Source: Candidatus Kuenenia stuttgartensis (lineage in GTDB: Bacteria > Planctomycetota > Planctomycetia > Planctomycetales > Planctomycetaceae). From it: 53,554 nucleotides of DNA. Of this stretch, positions 2,473 to 10,330 are shown in pieces (position 1 is the first letter of the stretch; the number at the start of each line of letters is the position of its first letter). Both the position numbers and the translations under genes were made by a program. The stretch covers positions 1 through 53,554 of the forward strand of contig CAMAVB010000017.1 in the NCBI GenBank assembly GCA_945861465.1. The letters run 5' to 3'. The notes beneath the pieces are model-generated. The model was not told the DNA's origin, made no database searches, and saw nothing but the letters and a program-made list of their open reading frames with translations.

Positions 2473-2568
2473 CGGCTGCGCCACGGGAATACGTCGTTTC
2501 AGCATTTCGTGAAGTTCATAGTTCGCCTGCGATTCGGTCCTGTTCAGCTGAAAATGGATACTGTTCAG

Positions 2569-3606
2569 ATGAAAATTCTGGTGACGGGCGCTGCGGGATT
2601 TATCGGTTCACACTTGACGGACGAGCTGCTGTCGCGGGGACACCATGTTGTCGGGCTTGATAATCTGAGGAACGGCCGCAAGGAGAATCTGTGCGACGCG
2701 ATGATGAAGGATCAATTTCAGTTTGTTCAGGCCGATTTGCTGGCTGACGAGACTTGCCACAGCGCCTGCCGTTCCGCCGACATTGTGTTTCATCTGGCAT
2801 GTCTTGGCGTCAGACATTCGCTGCACAGCCCATTTGAAAACCATCGAGTCAACGCCGAAGCCACTCTGAAGCTTCTCGAAGCGGCAAAGCAGGCCGGGAT
2901 CTCGAGATTCTTCTACATTTCGACATCAGAGGTTTATGGAAAGACGAATTCGTTCCCGATTCGGGAAACCGATATAACGGCTCCCACGACGGTTTATGGG
3001 GCGAGCAAGCTGGCTGGCGAGCACTATGCTCTGGCGTATCGCGAGTGTTTCGGCCTGAGTACTACCGTATTGCGAATATTCAACAACTATGGGCCTCGCG
3101 CCCATTATGAAGGCGACGCCGGAGAAGTGATTCCTCGGACGATTGTTCGAATTTTGAATGGCCTGAACCCTGTGATCTTTGGGGACGGCAGCGTGACTCG
3201 CGACTTCTTCTTTGTGAAAGATACTGCGCGCGTCCTCGCGGATCTGCTTGATGTTCAGAATATCACGGCTGAAACAATCAACGTCGGCACGGGCGTGGAA
3301 ATCACCATGCGATGTCTAATCGAGAAATTAGTGAAACTGATGTCCGACCATCGTGTCCAGATTGATTACCTCGACGACCGTCCTGCGGACGTTCCTCGCC
3401 TGTGGGTGGATAATGCAAAACTGAAGTCCCTCGTGTCACTTCAGCGACTGAAGGAATTCGACGAGGGCCTGCAGGAAACTGTAGAATTCTATCGGGGACT
3501 TGGCAAACCGAGCGAATTATTGTCATCTGTAGCGCTGCGGAACTGGTACACGGCTAGCCCGACTGCGACATCCGATGTGGAGTATCCCTGGAGAAACCGG
3601 CTTTGA
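2569..3606 (+). CDS. NAD-dependent epimerase/dehydratase (nucleotide sugar, SDR)
   Basis: This 345-residue extended short-chain dehydrogenase has the NAD-binding GAAGFIG motif at residues 8-14 and the catalytic set STSEVYG with YGASK (Tyr-x-x-x-Lys). C-terminal nucleotide-sugar-binding stretches include FNNYGPR and DGSVTRDFFFVKD. The family interconverts or dehydrates UDP- or dTDP-sugars in the cytoplasm; the exact substrate cannot be read from sequence. The start follows the canonical MKILVTG opening; an in-frame ATG at 2554 is possible and neither has a clear ribosome site. It opens the glycan cluster, and its TGA overlaps the TTG start of the aminotransferase (TTGA at 3603-3606), implying translational coupling. 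Confidence 0.88.
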   Translation: MKILVTGAAGFIGSHLTDELLSRGHHVVGLDNLRNGRKENLCDAMMKDQFQFVQADLLADETCHSACRSADIVFHLACLGVRHSLHSPFENHRVNAEATLKLLEAAKQAGISRFFYISTSEVYGKTNSFPIRETDITAPTTVYGASKLAGEHYALAYRECFGLSTTVLRIFNNYGPRAHYEGDAGEVIPRTIVRILNGLNPVIFGDGSVTRDFFFVKDTARVLADLLDVQNITAETINVGTGVEITMRCLIEKLVKLMSDHRVQIDYLDDRPADVPRLWVDNAKLKSLVSLQRLKEFDEGLQETVEFYRGLGKPSELLSSVALRNWYTASPTATSDVEYPWRNRL

Positions 3607-4748
3607 TTCCAATCACAATCCCGATGACTGGTGAGGAAGAAGCACTGGCGGCAGCCGAAGTTGTACGCAGTGGCTGGCTCACGCAAGGGCCAAAGGTTGC
3701 TGAATTCGAACGAGCGGTGGCTGGGTATTGCGGAACTGAACATGCAGTTGCCGTGGCAAATTGCACAGTGGCGCTACAACTTTCGATGGTCGTTCTTGGA
3801 GTCGGGCCGGGCGACGAAGTCATTTGTCCGTCGATGTCATTTATTGCAACCGCAAATGCAATCGTGCATACAGGGGCCACACCGGTCTTCGCTGATGTGG
3901 ATCCCGGGACATACAATCTGGATCCTGAAGCTGCCGAGGCTGCCATTACATCCCGCACAAAAGTGATCATGCCGGTGCATCAGATCGGCATGCCAGCTGA
4001 TTTAGATCGCTTTAACGAGATCGGCAAGAAGCACGGCGTGAAGATCTTAGAGGACGCCGCCTGTGCTATTGGCAGTCGCTACAAGGGCCACATCATCGGC
4101 GGGCACAGTGAAATGGCGTGCTTTAGTCTGCATCCGCGCAAAATCATTACGACCGGTGACGGTGGGCTGATTACAACCAACAATGCGGCCTATGCCGATC
4201 GATTGCGATTGCTTCGTCAGCACGGTATGAGCATTCCGGATACGGTTCGGCATGGGGCCAGGAAAGTCATGCTGGAAAGTTACACTGAAGTGGGCTACAA
4301 CTACCGTCTGACTGACGTGCAGGCGGCGATTGGGATCGAGCAGTTGAAGCGGTTGGACTGGATTGTCGAACGCCGCCGGGCAATTGCGGCAAGGTACACT
4401 GCAGCACTGTCGGGACATGCCTGGCTGATACCCCCATTTGAGCCCGAATATGCGACCAGCAATTTTCAGAGCTATGCAGTTCAACTCGCTGATGACGCAC
4501 CGATCAGCCGCAATGACCTGATGCAGTGGATGCTCGATCAGGACATTGCAACTCGCCGCGGCGTCATGCTGTCACACCTTGAGCCTGCTTTTGCCGGGCG
4601 GCCGGTTCCGAACGACTTGTCCAACAGCGAAGCCGCCAGCGCAAAATCGATCATCCTGCCGCTCTATCCTCAGATGACCGAACATGATCTGGGGAAAGTG
4701 CTCAGCACTCTGAATGCAGTGACCAGGAGTCGTGAGGCGGCACGATGA
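3603..4748 (+). CDS. DegT/DnrJ/EryC1/StrS sugar aminotransferase
   Basis: This full-length (381 aa) PLP-dependent aminotransferase would add an amino group to a keto-nucleotide sugar. Visible hallmarks are RSGWLTQGPKVAEFE near the N-terminus, the AFxDVDP-like FADVDPGTYNLDPE, the PLP-phosphate/pyridine region ILEDAACAIGS, and the Schiff-base lysine in HPRKIITTGDGG. I chose the TTG at 3603 because the family usually begins a few residues before GEEE; the first ATG (3624) would clip this. It overlaps the epimerase by 4 bases and the acetyltransferase by ATGA (4745-4748). With the Gfo/Idh dehydrogenase and acetyltransferase downstream it would form a WbpB/WbpE/WbpD-like route to a 3-acetamido sugar; that assignment is inference. 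Confidence 0.9.
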   Translation: MIPITIPMTGEEEALAAAEVVRSGWLTQGPKVAEFERAVAGYCGTEHAVAVANCTVALQLSMVVLGVGPGDEVICPSMSFIATANAIVHTGATPVFADVDPGTYNLDPEAAEAAITSRTKVIMPVHQIGMPADLDRFNEIGKKHGVKILEDAACAIGSRYKGHIIGGHSEMACFSLHPRKIITTGDGGLITTNNAAYADRLRLLRQHGMSIPDTVRHGARKVMLESYTEVGYNYRLTDVQAAIGIEQLKRLDWIVERRRAIAARYTAALSGHAWLIPPFEPEYATSNFQSYAVQLADDAPISRNDLMQWMLDQDIATRRGVMLSHLEPAFAGRPVPNDLSNSEAASAKSIILPLYPQMTEHDLGKVLSTLNAVTRSREAAR

Positions 4749-5173
4749 GCTTACCTCCGAACCCCTACCACGATTTGTGCTGGATCGTCGGCGATCCCCG
4801 GATTGGCGAAGGAACCTGGATTGGTGCGTTTACCCTCATTGATGGGCAGGGTGGTTTGGAGATTGGCAGGGGGTGCAACATATCAAGTGGTGCACAGATC
4901 CTGACGCATTCCACTGTCCAGCGATGCATTTCCGAACGAATTTATGATAAGGTCGATCGAGCGGCGACATTGATAGAAGATTTCGTATTTATTGGTTCTA
5001 ATGCCGTGGTGCTCATGGGCTGTCGAATAGGACACCATTCTGTCATTGCAGCCGGGGCTGTCGTTCCTGAGCATACCATTGTCGAACCCTTTAGTCTTTG
5101 GGCGGGAGTTCCTGCCAGATTTATTCGTTCTGTCCAGGAAGATGTGCACAACCTGCGGAAAGACCATTCGTGA
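4745..5173 (+). CDS. Left-handed beta-helix (hexapeptide) acyltransferase
   Basis: This 142-residue protein consists largely of hexapeptide repeats ([LIV]-G-x4), for example WIGAFTLIDG, LEIGRGCNISSG, FIGSNAVVLMG and IGHHSVIAAGAVVPE, and ends in the usual WAGVPARFIR loop. The His of ILTHST is a plausible catalytic base. Such enzymes move an acetyl group from acetyl-CoA to an amino or hydroxyl group of a sugar, acting as trimers in the cytoplasm. The ATG overlaps the aminotransferase stop (ATGA) and its own TGA overlaps the GTG of the glycosyltransferase, so four genes from 2569 to 6189 are translationally coupled. This is one of two acetyltransferases in the cluster, the other being at 9818. 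Confidence 0.88.
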   Translation: MSLPPNPYHDLCWIVGDPRIGEGTWIGAFTLIDGQGGLEIGRGCNISSGAQILTHSTVQRCISERIYDKVDRAATLIEDFVFIGSNAVVLMGCRIGHHSVIAAGAVVPEHTIVEPFSLWAGVPARFIRSVQEDVHNLRKDHS

Positions 5174-6189
5174 GTATTCCAAGAATCAGTGTGATCACGG
5201 CATTTCTGAATGAGGCGGACAATCTGCCTGCGTGGAAACAACGGGTCGAAGCTGCCCTGAGTGAATGCCGGGAAACCTTTGAGTTAGTGTTTGTCGATGA
5301 TCACTCGGCCGATGGCAGCACAGATTTGGTCCGCCACTGGTCGTTCGCCGATCCTCTAATCCAGTATGTGCGTCTTTCTCGCAACTGTGGTTCACACGCG
5401 GCATTCTCGGCTGGTCTGGAATCCTGTCGCGGTGATTGCGCTATATTACTGGCAGCAGACCTCCAGGATCCCCCCGAGGCGATTCCTCGTCTTCTTCAAG
5501 AGTGGCAAGCGGGCTACGGTGTGGTTTGGGCAGCTCGGTCAGAACGCCTGGGGGAATCATGGTCGACCAAGCTGTTTTCGTCAGCCTACTACTTTATCAT
5601 GCAGAAGCTCGCACTGCCGGAGATGCCTCGGCAGGGTGCCGATTTTGTACTTCTTGATCGTAAAGTCATTGACGCTTACAACGCCATTCCGGAAAAAAAC
5701 ACCAGTTTTCTGGCAATGATCCTGTGGTTGGGGTTTCGGCAAACGACGATCTCCTACGTCAAGGAAGCTCGGGCTGCGGGAAAGAGTAAGTGGACATTCG
5801 CAAAGAAACTCAAGCTCCTCGTCGATTCGATTGTTTCCTTCAGTTTCGCACCGATTCGCTTTGCCAGTTATCTTGGAATGCTGGTGAGTCTGACCGCATT
5901 TGGTTTCTCCATCCACGTTTTTGTGAACGCCATTTTTGGCCACCCCATCGAAGGATTTTCGTCCTTGATGATGGTCGTGCTGTGGATTGGCGGTATCCAG
6001 TTGTTGATTCTCGGGATTCTCGGCGAATACCTATGGCGGGCATTTGATCAGGTGCGGGGTCGGCCTTACTACGTCGTGGAAGAACGATCTGGATCGCCCA
6101 TTAATGTTGTAGTGCCAAAGGAGATGGTACAAGTTGATTCCGCCGTGTCGCAGCCCCTTGCGGATGGAGCGATAAATTCGGCCAGTTGA
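5170..6189 (+). CDS. Family 2 glycosyltransferase, ArnC/GtrB/DPM-like, with two C-terminal membrane helices
   Basis: This 339-residue enzyme resembles polyprenyl-phosphate glycosyltransferases such as ArnC, GtrB and dolichol-phosphate mannose synthase. The N-terminal GT-A domain has VITAFLNEADNLP, the nucleotide-binding FVDDHSADGS, and DLQDPPE containing the metal-binding Asp. An amphipathic/Arg-rich segment leads to two strongly hydrophobic helices (about residues 230-255 and 265-290). The expected role is to load a nucleotide sugar onto undecaprenyl phosphate at the inner face of the membrane. The start is GTG 5170, overlapping the previous TGA; the frame is open further upstream but lies wholly inside the acetyltransferase gene. 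The neighbouring four-helix protein and the GT39-like protein complete an Arn-like logic. Confidence 0.9.
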   Translation: MSIPRISVITAFLNEADNLPAWKQRVEAALSECRETFELVFVDDHSADGSTDLVRHWSFADPLIQYVRLSRNCGSHAAFSAGLESCRGDCAILLAADLQDPPEAIPRLLQEWQAGYGVVWAARSERLGESWSTKLFSSAYYFIMQKLALPEMPRQGADFVLLDRKVIDAYNAIPEKNTSFLAMILWLGFRQTTISYVKEARAAGKSKWTFAKKLKLLVDSIVSFSFAPIRFASYLGMLVSLTAFGFSIHVFVNAIFGHPIEGFSSLMMVVLWIGGIQLLILGILGEYLWRAFDQVRGRPYYVVEERSGSPINVVVPKEMVQVDSAVSQPLADGAINSAS

Positions 6190-6241: not shown

Positions 6242-6685
6242 ATGATGCGTTTATGGTCGAGTTGGGGACTCGTTGTACTCTCCGCGATTTGCGATTCCTA
6301 CGCCGCGTATGTCGTGAAGCACAAATTCAACATGCAGGGAGACATGGACTGGACATCCTTTGCTGCCGTCAGAGCTTATTTGTGGGAATTCATCCAATCC
6401 CCATTGCTGTTGACGGCGATCGTGACATTTTCTGCTGCGCCGGCATTATGGTTTTTTGCGTTGAATCGTCTTGACCTGTCCGCAGCTTATCCCGTCCTTG
6501 TCGCGTTGCACTTAGTCTTCGTGATGTTGACCGGGGCGTTGCTGCTCGGTGAAGACGTGAACGCATACAAGGTGGCAGGTACGGTACTGCTGGTGGCAAG
6601 TCTGGTACTTTTCGGAATTGGCAGCTTAAAGAAGAATTCGAAGGAACACGTCGGTGAAGATCACATTGGGACAACTGCTCGTTGA
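6242..6685 (+). CDS. EmrE/ArnE-like four-helix membrane protein (DMT superfamily)
   Basis: This 147-residue protein has four hydrophobic helices, with FFALNRLDLSAAYPVLVALH in the third and the GEDVNAYKVAGTVLLVASLV segment typical of small multidrug-resistance and ArnE/ArnF-type proteins. It is longer than EmrE by an insertion after helix one. GAGGTGAAG about 10 bases upstream of the ATG is a good ribosome site. Placed straight after a polyprenyl-phosphate glycosyltransferase, it more likely flips a lipid-linked sugar across the membrane than exports drugs; this is inferred from context and from the ArnE/ArnF precedent. Its 3' end overlaps the nitrilase gene by 32 bases. Confidence 0.85.
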   Translation: MMRLWSSWGLVVLSAICDSYAAYVVKHKFNMQGDMDWTSFAAVRAYLWEFIQSPLLLTAIVTFSAAPALWFFALNRLDLSAAYPVLVALHLVFVMLTGALLLGEDVNAYKVAGTVLLVASLVLFGIGSLKKNSKEHVGEDHIGTTAR

Positions 6686-7523
6686 AGGGGGCGAGCCTGC
6701 GCGAAATCTTGAGCGAGCGCAGTCAATGGTCAGGGCCGCAGCGCAGCATGGCTCAGATTTGATACTGCTTCCGGAGACCCTGGACTTCGCATGGACTCAC
6801 CCTTCAGCGTTGCGAGAGGCAGAGCCAATACCAGGGAGGTTGAGCGACCAGCTTTGCAGCTTTGCCAGAGATTCTGGAATTTTTGTCTGCGCAGGCCTGA
6901 CAGAGGCCACTGCCAGAGGGAACTATAACACAGGAATCCTGATCGACCGGTGCGGACAGATCGTCGCGGTGCATCACAAAATTAATCTTTTGGATGTGGA
7001 ATTACCGTTTTATCGCGTGGGTCAGCAGTTAAGAGTCGTCGATACGGAGTTGGGGCGAATTGGCCTGAATGTGTGTGCAGACAATTACATTGATGGTCTG
7101 GCAATTGGCCACACGCTGGGACGCATGGGAGCGCAGATCATCCTGTCGCCGTCGTCCTGGACTTCTTCATTTTCGGTAGATGAAGTGGTCGATCCCTATG
7201 CGGACAAGTGGCTCGCACCATTTTTCATGCTCGCGAAAATGTACGACATGTACGTTGCCAGTTCGACCAGCGTGGGATACATTGTGGGCGGGCCTTATGA
7301 AGGTAAAAAAATGGTTGGGCGTTCTCTTGTCGCGGGGCCGCAGGGGATCGTTTGTCAGGGGCCATTCAATGAGTTTGCGGGCGATGTGGTCCATGCAGAG
7401 CTGCACTTGATGCAAAGTCCGGCGGTTGGCACAGCGATTGGCAGTCGCTTGCAGGGATTGGGGTACCAGCTGGACGACACACAGTGGCCAGCATTCAAAC
7501 GTGCCCATTATCATTCAAAGTAG
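6654..7523 (+). CDS. Carbon-nitrogen hydrolase (nitrilase superfamily), possible ammonia-supplying amidase
   Basis: This 289-residue nitrilase-fold enzyme shows the full catalytic triad: Glu41 (LLPETLDF), Lys109 (HHKINLLDVE) and Cys141 (NVCADNY), with the usual spacing. Members hydrolyse amides or nitriles; some, such as the glutaminase domain of glutamine-dependent NAD+ synthetase, release ammonia from glutamine. The start is GTG 6654 with AAGGA 8 bases upstream, inside the end of the previous gene. It lies 9 bases before a PP-loop sugar amidotransferase, and no HisH/HisF-type ammonia source is seen nearby. I infer that it may feed ammonia to that enzyme. An independent amidase on a glycan intermediate is the alternative. 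Confidence 0.88.
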   Translation: MKITLGQLLVEGGEPARNLERAQSMVRAAAQHGSDLILLPETLDFAWTHPSALREAEPIPGRLSDQLCSFARDSGIFVCAGLTEATARGNYNTGILIDRCGQIVAVHHKINLLDVELPFYRVGQQLRVVDTELGRIGLNVCADNYIDGLAIGHTLGRMGAQIILSPSSWTSSFSVDEVVDPYADKWLAPFFMLAKMYDMYVASSTSVGYIVGGPYEGKKMVGRSLVAGPQGIVCQGPFNEFAGDVVHAELHLMQSPAVGTAIGSRLQGLGYQLDDTQWPAFKRAHYHSK

Positions 7524-7532
7524 GGGCGATTC

Positions 7533-8729
7533 GTGTATCATGACTATTTCACCCTTACTCCTCGGGGAAAGGACGGTTATCGAATCTGCACGCGATGTAC
7601 TGTGGACACGACCGTGCCGGGTGCCACGTTCGACAGCGATGGCGTCTGTAATTTTTGTCACCTGCATTCGAAGTTGGAACAGCAGTTCCCGCTCAACGCG
7701 ACAGGCGAGGTGAGAAAGCAGCAATGGCTGGATGAGATTCGAAGAATAGGCCGGAACACGGAGTTCGATTGTATTCTCGGGGTAAGCGGTGGCCGAGATT
7801 CAATGTATACGCTCTGGCTGGCGGTGAAAGAATGGGGCCTTCGTCCTTTGGCCGTTCACTTTAACGACGGATTCGGAAATCCGACCGCTGGCGAAAACAT
7901 GTATAAGGCCGCCTCCAAACTTGGTGTGACGCTCCGCACTGTGACTTCTGATTGGCGGGAGTCCAAAGATATTAAGCTCTCGTTGCTGAAAGCAGGCGTT
8001 CCGGATCTGGAGGTGGGTACTGACATCGGAATCGCGACTGCACTTTACAGTATGGCTGTTCGAAACAACCTGCGGAGTGTGATCGTCGGGCAGTCGTTTC
8101 GAACAGAGGGGATTGCTCCCCTTTCATGGAATTACCTGGATGGCAAGTACTTGTCTGAAATCCACAGGAAATTCGGAACGGTAGAACTGAGACCGTGGAA
8201 AGCGGAAGATCCGGGGTTTCGCCTTGGCCTTCGGCAGATCTTCGACTATACCGTACGCCGACGAATACGGACTTATCCACTTCTTTATTTGACTAATTAC
8301 AACCGCGCAGAGGCGGAGAAAATCATTAAGCGTGACCTGGACTGGGTGTATCCAGGGGCACACTATTTCGACGATCTCTTTCAGAGCCTGATGCACTGGT
8401 ATCACCGTACAAAGTTCGGCTTTGACCGCAGAACGTACAATTATGCTGCTCTGGTTCGCGATGGGCAAATGCTCCGTGAAGACGCAATCAGGAATTTGGA
8501 AACGCCTTACTGCATTGAGGACCCAAAGGTGATCGAACTCTGCGTCAGGCGGCTAGGGCTGTCTCAGGATGATTTTGCAGAATTAATGAAAGTACCGGCG
8601 ATGAATTTTCGCGATTATCCAAATAGTTATAGCTTAATCCGTAAGCTTCGACCTGCGATCTGGTTGTTGAGCAGGCTGAATCTGGTTCCCGCGACGGCCT
8701 ACGATAAATATTTTCACGCAGGTCTGTAG
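7533..8729 (+). CDS. N-acetyl sugar amidotransferase (WbpG/PseA-like PP-loop ATPase)
   Basis: This 398-residue PP-loop enzyme has the adenylating loop SGGRDS at residues 85-90, preceded by ICTRC (Cys19/Cys22) and CNFC (Cys39/Cys42), probably a zinc site. This arrangement fits the WbpG/PseA group, which turns a sugar carboxylate into an amide or amidine using ATP and ammonia. The start is GTG 7533 with AGGGG upstream. In Pseudomonas O-antigen clusters WbpG works with HisH- and HisF-like partners; here the immediate neighbour is a nitrilase-family amidase instead. The final product is probably a carboxamide- or amidine-bearing amino sugar, by analogy only. Confidence 0.88.
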   Translation: MYHDYFTLTPRGKDGYRICTRCTVDTTVPGATFDSDGVCNFCHLHSKLEQQFPLNATGEVRKQQWLDEIRRIGRNTEFDCILGVSGGRDSMYTLWLAVKEWGLRPLAVHFNDGFGNPTAGENMYKAASKLGVTLRTVTSDWRESKDIKLSLLKAGVPDLEVGTDIGIATALYSMAVRNNLRSVIVGQSFRTEGIAPLSWNYLDGKYLSEIHRKFGTVELRPWKAEDPGFRLGLRQIFDYTVRRRIRTYPLLYLTNYNRAEAEKIIKRDLDWVYPGAHYFDDLFQSLMHWYHRTKFGFDRRTYNYAALVRDGQMLREDAIRNLETPYCIEDPKVIELCVRRLGLSQDDFAELMKVPAMNFRDYPNSYSLIRKLRPAIWLLSRLNLVPATAYDKYFHAGL

Positions 8730-8763: not shown

Positions 8764-9777
8764 ATGATCCGTGTTGCGCTCGTCGGAGCTGGCTATTGGG
8801 GCCCCAACCTGATCCGAAACTTTTTTGTCTGCCCTGATACCACCCTTGTGGCGGTGTGCGACATGGACCGTGCTCGACTTGACAAGGTGCTGGCCGGTTA
8901 TCCCGGCGTGGACGCCGAAGACAGCTTCGCCGCACTCGTGAGGCGAGACGACGTTGACGCACTGGTCATTGCGACACCTGTGGGGAGTCACGCGCCACTG
9001 GCGCTCGCCGGGCTGCGGGCGGGAAAGCACGTGCTGGTTGAAAAGCCAATGGCGGCGTCAGTACGTGAGGCGGAGGCGATGGTTGCCGCCGCCAGGGAGG
9101 CGGGACGCGTGCTGATGGTCGATCACACTTTCGTTTACAGCGGCCCTGTCCGGAAGATCAAGGAGATCGTTGATTCCGGTGAGTTGGGCGATATCTATTA
9201 TGTTGACAGCGTCCGCATCAACCTGGGTCTGTTCCAGCATGATGTCAATGTGGTCTGGGACCTTGCTCCTCACGACCTTTCAATCGTGGACTACCTGATT
9301 GGACGACTGCCCAGGAGTCTGTCTGCATTCGGCACATGTCACACTGACGCTGCCAGCGGGATTGAAGATGTGGCGTATCTGAATCTCGATTTTGGCGATG
9401 GCTTGTTGGCGTCTTTTCACGTCAACTGGCTCAGCCCTGTCAAAATCCGCAGTTTTCTTATCGGTGGCAGCCGGAAGGGGCTCGTCTACAACGACCTTTC
9501 TCCGGACGAGAAAATCAAAGTCTACGATCGCGGGATCACATTCGCTGACGACGCCGAGTCAAGGCATGGTGTGATGATCGGTTATCGAACGGGCGACGTG
9601 TGGTCTCCGCGAATCCAGGGCCATGAGCCACTTCAGGCGATGGTTCGCCACTTTGCCGAGTGCATCCGCGACGGCATAACTCCCTTGACCGATGGCGACG
9701 CCGGTTTGAGAATTGTGCGGATTCTGGAAGCTGCACAGCGAAGCATCAAGGCCCAGGGCGGCAGGATCACGCTTTGA
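8764..9777 (+). CDS. Gfo/Idh/MocA oxidoreductase (WbpB/WlbA-like nucleotide-sugar 3-dehydrogenase candidate)
   Basis: This 337-residue NAD(P)-dependent dehydrogenase has the Rossmann motif GAGYWGPN (from residue 8), the EKPM motif with its conserved Lys, and the DLAPHDLSIVDYL segment with the expected catalytic His. In O-antigen clusters enzymes of this type (WbpB, WlbA) oxidise C3 of a UDP-N-acetyl-hexuronate so an aminotransferase can install a 3-amino group. The aminotransferase at 3603 and the acetyltransferase at 9818 would supply the next steps. GGGAG lies 11 bases before the ATG. The 34-base gap to the previous gene keeps it in the same probable operon. The exact sugar is inferred. Confidence 0.88.
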   Translation: MIRVALVGAGYWGPNLIRNFFVCPDTTLVAVCDMDRARLDKVLAGYPGVDAEDSFAALVRRDDVDALVIATPVGSHAPLALAGLRAGKHVLVEKPMAASVREAEAMVAAAREAGRVLMVDHTFVYSGPVRKIKEIVDSGELGDIYYVDSVRINLGLFQHDVNVVWDLAPHDLSIVDYLIGRLPRSLSAFGTCHTDAASGIEDVAYLNLDFGDGLLASFHVNWLSPVKIRSFLIGGSRKGLVYNDLSPDEKIKVYDRGITFADDAESRHGVMIGYRTGDVWSPRIQGHEPLQAMVRHFAECIRDGITPLTDGDAGLRIVRILEAAQRSIKAQGGRITL

Positions 9778-9817: not shown

Positions 9818-10330
9818 ATGTCTACACCAGAAAACGGTGAACGCCCTCAAGAATCAACAAAAAACGAATCCGGTCCAGTTCGCACAATCTCCATTTCGAT
9901 CCGGAATGTGCAGTTTGGCGAAGGAGTGACTGTCGTTGAACCATCGAATCTCTACGAATGCAGGATCGGCGACAACTCATTTATTGGGCCATTTGTTGAA
10001 ATTCAAAGGGGAGTGGTAATCGGCTGCCGTACCAGAATCCAGTCGCATACATTCATCTGTGAACTTGTGACCATCGGAAACGATTGCTTTATCGGACATG
10101 GTGTCATGTTTATCAACGATCTGTTCTCAGATCGTGGGCCTGCGGTGAGTGCTGCCGGCTGGAAGCAGACGACCATTGGAGATCATGTGTCGATTGGCTC
10201 AAATGCGACGATACTTCCTGTACAGATTTGTAATGATGTTGTGATTGGTGCCGGTGCTGTTGTAACAAAAGACATCAGCATTTCGGGAACCTACACTGGA
10301 AATCCGGCCAGATTGCTTCGAACTTACTGA
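9818..10330 (+). CDS. WlbB/WbpD-like N-acetyltransferase (hexapeptide)
   Basis: This 170-residue left-handed beta-helix enzyme resembles WbpD/WlbB, which acetylate the 3-amino group of UDP-2-acetamido-3-amino-hexuronates. After a polar 25-residue leader come repeats such as CRIGDNSFIGPFVEIQ, VVIGCRTRIQSH, VTIGNDCFIGHGV, TIGDHVSIGSNATI and VVIGAGAVVTKD, ending in GNPARLLRTY. Asn-Asp in MFINDLF and the His of FIGHGV are likely active-site residues. It follows the dehydrogenase by 40 bases and is the last coupled biosynthetic gene; a 394-base gap with a foldback element follows. It is placed better than the 4745 enzyme for 3-N-acetylation, by pathway order. Confidence 0.87.
   Translation: MSTPENGERPQESTKNESGPVRTISISIRNVQFGEGVTVVEPSNLYECRIGDNSFIGPFVEIQRGVVIGCRTRIQSHTFICELVTIGNDCFIGHGVMFINDLFSDRGPAVSAAGWKQTTIGDHVSIGSNATILPVQICNDVVIGAGAVVTKDISISGTYTGNPARLLRTY

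Follow-up and report, generated by a model that had tools for sequence, protein, structure and literature searches.

Results

A CN-hydrolase gene lies directly upstream of an N-acetyl sugar amidotransferase gene

We analyzed a 53,554-nucleotide stretch of DNA from Candidatus Kuenenia stuttgartensis (GenBank assembly GCA_945861465.1, contig CAMAVB010000017.1), the whole of which we call the window. It contains two open reading frames (ORFs) on the same strand, separated by 9 bases. The first encodes a member of the nitrilase (CN-hydrolase) superfamily and the second an N-acetyl sugar amidotransferase (NASAT). Both are located where a first-pass annotation of this DNA had placed them.

6654..7523, + strand: CN-hydrolase (nitrilase superfamily), proposed glutaminase subunit; 289 aa, GTG start, PF00795
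7533..8729, + strand: NASAT, proposed synthetase subunit; 398 aa, GTG start, TIGR03573

The upstream protein belongs to the CN-hydrolase superfamily. It matches PF00795 (E=1.8e-33, 116.4 bits, cut-off 23.2) and has the Glu-Lys-Cys triad. The triad residues that had been reported, E41, K109 and C141, are present as given and are invariant in both alignments of CN-hydrolases that we made (10/10 rows of A5 and 17/17 rows of A6, which have three rows in common: the window, L051 and L078). CN-hydrolases that are paired with a NASAT also carry residues that are missing in six unpaired homologues, notably TSVG-x-[IV]VGGPYEGKK and NEFA; the latter is kept in 16/17 rows of A6.

The downstream protein is a member of TIGR03573 (206.6 bits, curated cut-off 203.2). 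All 12 members of its clade in alignment A4 match this model (E<=0.001), and the seven for which bits were read are over the cut-off by just 3-29 bits. Its PP-loop, SGGRDS, spans residues 85-90, and its tetracysteine motif is intact, with C19, C22, C39 and C42 in place. The PP-loop SGG[KR]DS and the tetracysteine zinc motif are invariant in the 12 aligned clade members. In the profile search the window NASAT matched TIGR03573 only and was not identified as a NadE synthetase; one of the 12 clade members weakly matches NAD+ synthase NF010587 (6e-4).

The linkage is conserved across phyla

We scanned one genome per species for relatives of the window NASAT and took the best 80 of 515 as loci. Twelve of these NASATs are 47-60% identical to that of the window and the rest are at most 41% identical. 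Nine of the 12 closest loci have a CN-hydrolase gene as the immediate upstream neighbor in the same orientation, and the encoded CN-hydrolases are 51-61% identical to that of the window. The nine loci are from Hymenobacter (two), Omnitrophota (four), Verrucomicrobia (one), a Pelagibacteraceae record (one) and Chitinophagales (one). None of the 12 closest loci has a HisH or HisF gene. Among the other 68 loci, none has a CN-hydrolase gene, 53 have HisH and/or HisF, and 15, some of them on short contigs, have neither partner. In all, we found the pair in Planctomycetota, Bacteroidota, Omnitrophota, Verrucomicrobiota and Pseudomonadota.

The pair is common in some groups. A NASAT of the close clade is present in 71 of 200 Hymenobacteraceae genomes; four other genomes had a match, three of them to distant NASATs only and one (G642) to a short fragment with an internal stop. 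We fetched 30 loci, from 30 of the 71 genomes. The CN-hydrolase gene is immediately upstream in 28 of these, and the two exceptions are NASAT copies in G490 and G614, where the CN-hydrolase gene is beside the other copy. That is, all 30 genomes checked have the CN-hydrolase.

In Omnitrophota, a search at 1e-60 found a NASAT in 26 of 384 genomes, and 13 have the close-clade type. We fetched 30 of the 34 NASAT places. All 13 close-clade genomes have a linked CN-hydrolase, adjacent in 12 of them (12/14 loci) and 3.3 kb from one of two NASAT copies in the other (G712). None of the 16 fetched loci with distant NASATs has a CN-hydrolase gene; HisH and/or HisF2 is found within 1.5 kb in 12 of them.

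The type of CN-hydrolase also follows the type of NASAT. Paired-type CN-hydrolase (485-510 bits) is present in each of four pair genomes searched and in none of 24 genomes of other NASATs, four of which gave weak matches (77-85 bits). A conserved link to an ATP-dependent synthetase, as required for a class IV glutaminase subunit, is thus present, and the first-pass annotation, which would have been undermined by HisH/HisF beside the same amidotransferase in close relatives or by lack of conserved linkage, held up on both counts. Nothing was found in searches of viral contigs for NASAT and of plasmids for CN-hydrolase. One CN-hydrolase, that of L159, reads in two frames.

No HisH2/HisF2 paralogues were found for the window NASAT

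The source genome (8.2 Mb in 474 contigs; estimated completeness 100, contamination 3.71) encodes one NASAT, one HisH and seven CN-hydrolases in all. No protein in this genome is over the NF038364 cut-off for HisF2, and neither HisH nor HisF is among the window cluster proteins scanned by profile. There are no HisH2 and HisF2 paralogues beside the NASAT. These results bear out the earlier statement that no HisH/HisF genes are seen. The genome-wide search for HisH covered the source genome; in other genomes HisH was sought within the fetched loci.

The usual type of system does occur in near organisms. A NASAT in the same family of genomes (L010; 38% identity) adjoins a HisF2 gene (NF038364, 315.8 bits, cut-off 310). 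As a separate observation, three Planctomycetaceae NASATs (L059, L067 and L081, the last being the same place as L010) have a NodU-like carbamoyltransferase gene and HisF2, with no HisH detected in the locus.

We considered that a HisF2 acting in trans or from afar might serve the NASAT in pair genomes, and rejected this. Of 13 clade genomes searched, one has a HisF2 over the cut-off, as part of a separate HisF2-HisH-NASAT triad that lies at the end of a contig. Two genomes (G827 and G449) hold both systems, and every NASAT in them has its own partner.

CN-linked NASATs form a single clade

We built a tree of 115 NASAT rows by a quick method, with a midpoint root and no bootstrap. Twenty rows were labeled as CN-linked, 70 as HisH/HisF-linked and 25 as neither, based on the genes within 5 kb or the shorter flank. 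All 20 CN-linked rows and none of the 70 HisH/HisF-linked rows are in one clade of 25 rows (SH-like approximate likelihood ratio test support 99). The other five rows of this clade, with neither partner found, are three from Elusimicrobiota and the two G712 copies.

A few places are present twice in the tree. L010/L081, L011/L076 and L038/L115 are the same places, each of which accounts for two of the 70 HisH/HisF rows; L045/L130, L046/L156, L047/L157, L048/L126 and L062/L171 are also single places with two identifiers. The label of neither partner for L161, L174, L175, L179, L180 and L182 means not seen within 1.5 kb flanks. The tree omits L062 and L171 (match too short), L167 (no NASAT row), L013 and L040-L044, and includes three of L126-L155.

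The trees of the two proteins are correlated. For 20 pairs of CN-hydrolase and NASAT, r=0.86, with no correction for the kinship of the organisms, and none of 2000 permutations gave a value as high. The CN-hydrolase tree also unites the Verrucomicrobia and Chitinophagales rows, weakly (87/15). We did not use the position of the whole paired group in this tree, as rows L195_far and L196_far are wrong ORFs, the longest of their loci instead of the CN-hydrolase. Neither row enters the correlation of the two trees. Based on the two trees, we infer that the CN-hydrolase and NASAT genes have probably been transferred as a unit.

A joint structural model gives moderate support for a putative interface

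We folded the two window proteins as one chain of 691 residues, using an alignment of in-frame homologous pairs (40 rows, of which 15, including the window, were paired). The predicted template modeling score (pTM) was 0.80 and the mean predicted local distance difference test (pLDDT) value was 88, with values below 50 only at the junction (275-307). In a Foldseek search with the joint chain, the first part matched nitrilases (17-25% identity in the listed nitrilase-fold matches). The chain also matched glutamine-dependent NAD synthetases over 549-740 columns; the alignments to 5kha, 4f4h, 3n05 and 3dla have 627-740 columns, which is long enough for both parts of the chain. We take the model as moderate support for a putative interface between CN-hydrolase and NASAT.

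The pair is in a putative amino-sugar cluster in the window and near homologues of its genes in most loci outside Hymenobacter

The genes surrounding the pair in the window look like an amino-sugar pathway, as judged from their predicted products:

2509..3606, + strand: NAD-dependent sugar-nucleotide dehydratase/epimerase, LegB / dTDP-glucose dehydratase-like; below NCBIfam equivalog cut-offs
3603..4748, + strand: DegT-family sugar aminotransferase, PseC/ArnB-like; below NCBIfam equivalog cut-offs
4745..5173, + strand: hexapeptide-repeat acyltransferase; profile match
5098..6189, + strand: GT2 glycosyltransferase, PgfS/ArnC-like (polyprenyl-phosphate sugar type); below NCBIfam equivalog cut-offs
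6242..6685, + strand: small EamA/SMR-type membrane protein, possible flippase; profile match
8764..9777, + strand: Gfo/Idh/MocA oxidoreductase, UDP-GlcNAc 3-dehydrogenase-like; 165 bits, cut-off 450
9818..10330, + strand: second hexapeptide-repeat acyltransferase; profile matches

The first five of these genes precede the pair as a same-strand run, and the EamA/SMR gene overlaps the start of the CN-hydrolase gene by 32 bases. The oxidoreductase gene and then the second hexapeptide gene are downstream of the pair. Just upstream of the sugar cluster, an ORF at 159-1895 is galactarate dehydratase-like (370 bits, cut-off 731).

Outside Hymenobacter, 15 of the 16 other pair loci have at least one homologue of the window SDR, aminotransferase, hexapeptide, GT2, Gfo/Idh or EamA genes within the stretch that was fetched; the exception, L166, has no cluster homologue in 1.5 kb. 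An EamA-type gene is upstream of the CN-hydrolase gene in 10 of the 16. In four loci (L047, L049, L050 and L062) the two ORFs of the pair overlap by 4-11 bases, taking the longest ORF. Two Hymenobacter loci with long flanks (L045 and L048) have no sugar genes beside the pair, indicating that there the two genes are kept together by each other.

We made several other observations on NASAT loci. Genes for NodU-like carbamoyltransferases are repeatedly found next to NASATs, both CN-linked and HisH/HisF-linked, at the following places:

L050:5756-7372, L078:11118-12779, L054:12029-13690, L066, L077, L079, L080: NodU-like genes

In L012 (8358-14273) the NASAT gene follows a gene for a TPR protein and is itself followed by an ORF and a RarA-type ATPase gene; there is no HisH/HisF within this locus, which is outside any obvious sugar cluster. 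The loci of four Larkinella NASATs (L089, L092, L093 and L103) contain no HisH/HisF and no CN-hydrolase; the two Larkinella genomes searched (L089 and L093) also lack a paired-type CN-hydrolase.

Discussion

The pair as a two-subunit amidotransferase

We think it probable that the pair is a two-subunit glutamine-dependent amidotransferase in which a nitrilase replaces HisH/HisF2 as the source of ammonia for a NASAT. In this model, the CN-hydrolase would hydrolyze glutamine at Cys141 and the ammonia would pass to the NASAT, which would use ATP at the PP-loop to activate the N-acyl group of a sugar and convert it to an amidine. The group modified would probably be an N-acetyl group carried by an amino sugar that is linked to a nucleotide or to polyprenyl phosphate. 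The nitrilase would thus stand in for HisH/HisF2, the partners of much of the remaining NASAT family. This is the split, sugar-specific nitrilase and PP-loop ammonia supply that the first-pass annotation had proposed, and the genomic evidence supports it.

Several observations weigh against a glutaminase subunit that serves the NASAT. In the NCBIfam profile search, no model was over its cut-off for the CN-hydrolase, which scored 41 bits against NAD+ synthase NF010588 (cut-off 479). A second glutamate after the triad lysine, E116, is present in 15 of the 17 rows of A6. It may be the equivalent of the second glutamate of the NadE glutaminase (PMC6946656), with which it was matched by position alone. 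The lack of neighboring HisH/HisF is not peculiar to the CN clade, as it is shared by the 15 of 68 other loci that have neither partner.

Homologues of the CN-hydrolase are also found away from NASATs. In a survey of 392 genomes of the phylum, a NASAT (1e-25) was present in eight and a CN-hydrolase homologue (1e-35) in seven, and only the window genome had both. None of the six other CN-hydrolase homologues (39-43% identity) was beside a NASAT in the stretches fetched, where three of the six contigs were short. The fold alone therefore does not imply a glutaminase. The survey at first appeared contrary to the linkage; the scan of one genome per species then placed the relatives of the pair in other phyla. 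Some of these six unlinked genes (L031-L036) adjoin ORFs that, judged by eye, are FGE-sulfatase-like or xylose-isomerase-like.

Two structural results point the same way. A control fold of the AT and GT2 proteins of L046, which are encoded by neighboring genes and presumably do not bind each other, reached a pTM of 0.64 and a mean pLDDT of 82.4, although the control was unmatched (15 rows, 1 paired). A pTM of ~0.55, estimated from the pTM formula as the baseline for independent domains, is too low given the control. In addition, the joint model differs from NadE by a root-mean-square deviation of 18-26 A, indicating that the two parts are placed otherwise than in NadE. This difference is not decisive, since a 103-degree rotation separates the NadE enzymes of human and M. 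tuberculosis, which also have intra- versus inter-subunit tunnels (PMC6946656).

The last point concerns Elusimicrobiota. The three clade NASATs from this group (L052, L053 and L054) have no CN-hydrolase and no HisH/HisF in the locus, and none of the three genomes has a paired-type CN-hydrolase. They are the only close-clade NASATs in 294 Elusimicrobiota genomes. In the NASAT tree they group with CN-linked Verrucomicrobia and Chitinophagales rows (support 100), and this nesting suggests that they once had the CN-hydrolase and lost it, and not that it was absent from the start. Motifs that are nearly constant in the CN-linked NASATs have drifted in these three; in L052, for example, HFNDGF is HSDDWF and SDWRESKD is YPKELAYE. 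The two from Endomicrobiaceae (L052:1762-11865 and L053:4452-16758) have ammonium transporter and PII genes around them, and domains of glutamine synthetase and class-II glutamine amidotransferase are encoded nearby (the context of L052 was determined by profile search and that of L053 mostly by sequence likeness). It is possible, from this context, that the Endomicrobiaceae NASATs are fed by ammonia. The L054 NASAT gene adjoins HAD hydrolase, GT2-like and NodU-like genes.

Alternative explanations

The pair could be a two-subunit amidotransferase with a product other than an amidino sugar, for example by amidation of the carboxylate of a uronic acid or of a substrate that is not a glycan. The two long-flank Hymenobacter pairs are outside sugar clusters, the margin over the TIGR03573 cut-off is narrow in the seven members whose bits were read, and two of the three Elusimicrobiota loci are among nitrogen-assimilation genes. 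Furthermore, the most similar design, that of NAD synthetase, turns a carboxylate into an amide. On the other hand, all 12 A4 members match TIGR03573 with the tetracysteine and PP-loop intact, and amino-sugar cluster homologues accompany nearly all of the other pairs outside Hymenobacter. We regard a different product as unlikely, while giving it some weight.

It is also possible, and we think rather improbable, that the CN-hydrolase is a separate amidase of the pathway, acting as an ArnD-like deformylase or deacetylase or on some other amide, and giving no ammonia to the NASAT. CN-hydrolases mostly cut amides, the Arn pathway includes a deformylase step, and ArnB-, ArnC- and SMR/EamA-like genes are in the window cluster and several pair loci. 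However, the pair is kept without those genes in the two long-flank Hymenobacter loci. Moreover, the absence of CN-hydrolase from the 68 more distant loci and of HisH/HisF from the 12 close ones is what replacement predicts.

A third explanation, for which we see little likelihood, is that the NASAT uses free ammonia that the CN-hydrolase releases from a nitrile, asparagine or a small amide, with no channel between them. The nearest NCBIfam profile to the CN-hydrolase is archaeal nitrilase (60 bits, cut-off 500), and two of the three CN-free Elusimicrobiota NASATs are near ammonium transporter and PII genes. The adjacency, the correlated trees and the joint fold indicate instead a specific partner. 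Lastly, glycan clusters undergo gene shuffling, but we rejected chance adjacency in a glycan operon as having a negligible probability, because the linkage is conserved in five phyla, even in two loci that share no further gene, and the CN-linked NASATs form a single clade.

Implications

Returning to the two-subunit amidotransferase, a broader interpretation, about which we are evenly divided, is that nitrilase glutaminases came to feed a PP-loop synthetase on a second occasion, separate from their recruitment for NAD+ synthetase, and that the pair is a portable module across phyla that stands alone in Hymenobacter. The NASAT family would then have three ammonia routes, a proposal to which we give equal odds for and against: HisH/HisF2, a nitrilase subunit, and, after loss of the nitrilase, free ammonium at an AmtB-PII-glutamine synthetase locus in Endomicrobiaceae.

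The glutaminase domains of ATP-dependent amidotransferases fall into few classes, and the nitrilase class has been assigned to NAD synthetase (PMC3376133). If our interpretation is correct, a second user would mean that the nitrilase fold can be taken up more than once to supply ammonia. The pair, with two genes and probably soluble products, would also be a simple system in which to study how NASATs receive ammonia, and the CN-free Elusimicrobiota NASATs would be a natural counterpart for comparison with ammonia-dependent NadE. The annotation would be corrected for a pair whose NASAT is in more than a third of the Hymenobacteraceae genomes searched, with the CN-hydrolase in every one checked.

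Comparison with known systems

The window CN-hydrolase has its fold and triad in common with stand-alone nitrilases, Nit2 and N-carbamoylputrescine amidase. It differs from these in being at 17-25% identity in the listed matches and below every NCBIfam cut-off. We know of no NASAT partner for any of these stand-alone families. We call the pair undescribed because, among the titles and abstract openings listed in searches of open-licence PubMed Central, no paper joins a nitrilase with a NASAT.

The window NASAT is in the same family as LpNASAT (PDB 8WEX), which likewise has the tetracysteine zinc site and the PP-loop (PMC10607449); the two are distant (E=2.4e-8, partial match). The paper on this NASAT crystal structure, which calls the structure and function of NASATs little known, overlays it on NadE and proposes a reaction of ATP to AMP (PMC10607449). 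Its main text has no instance of "glutamin" and one of "ammonia", and no ammonia partner is named in the text seen (PMC10607449).

The acetamidino systems WbpG/WbuX-HisH2-HisF2 (TIGR03573 with HisH and NF038364/TIGR03572) share the PP-loop amidotransferase family with the window pair. A WbuX-family NASAT has been listed with HisF2 and HisH genes in one cluster (PMC11340318), and another paper describes extra hisH2/hisF2 copies, with NASAT unmentioned in the text seen (PMC8305728). The HisF2-linked locus L010 even has 3-dehydrogenase-like and PseC-like neighbors similar to those of the window. In these systems HisH and HisF2 are the ammonia partners, whereas in the window a CN-hydrolase is in their place and the NASAT is in a separate clade.

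The closest parallel is the type C NAD+ synthetase of Thermus thermophilus (TTC1538-TTC1539), in which a nitrilase-type glutaminase and a PP-loop synthetase are likewise encoded by separate neighboring genes. The class IV (nitrilase-like) glutaminase is listed as a component of NAD+ synthetase; typical single-domain NAD+ synthetases are argued to use ammonia, and the two-gene enzyme of T. thermophilus forms a complex and uses both glutamine and ammonia (PMC3376133). The complex is experimental there and putative here, and the synthetase in the window is a NASAT (TIGR03573) and not NadE. Since the split design of nitrilase glutaminase and PP-loop synthetase is already known for NAD synthetase, what would be new here is a NASAT as its user.

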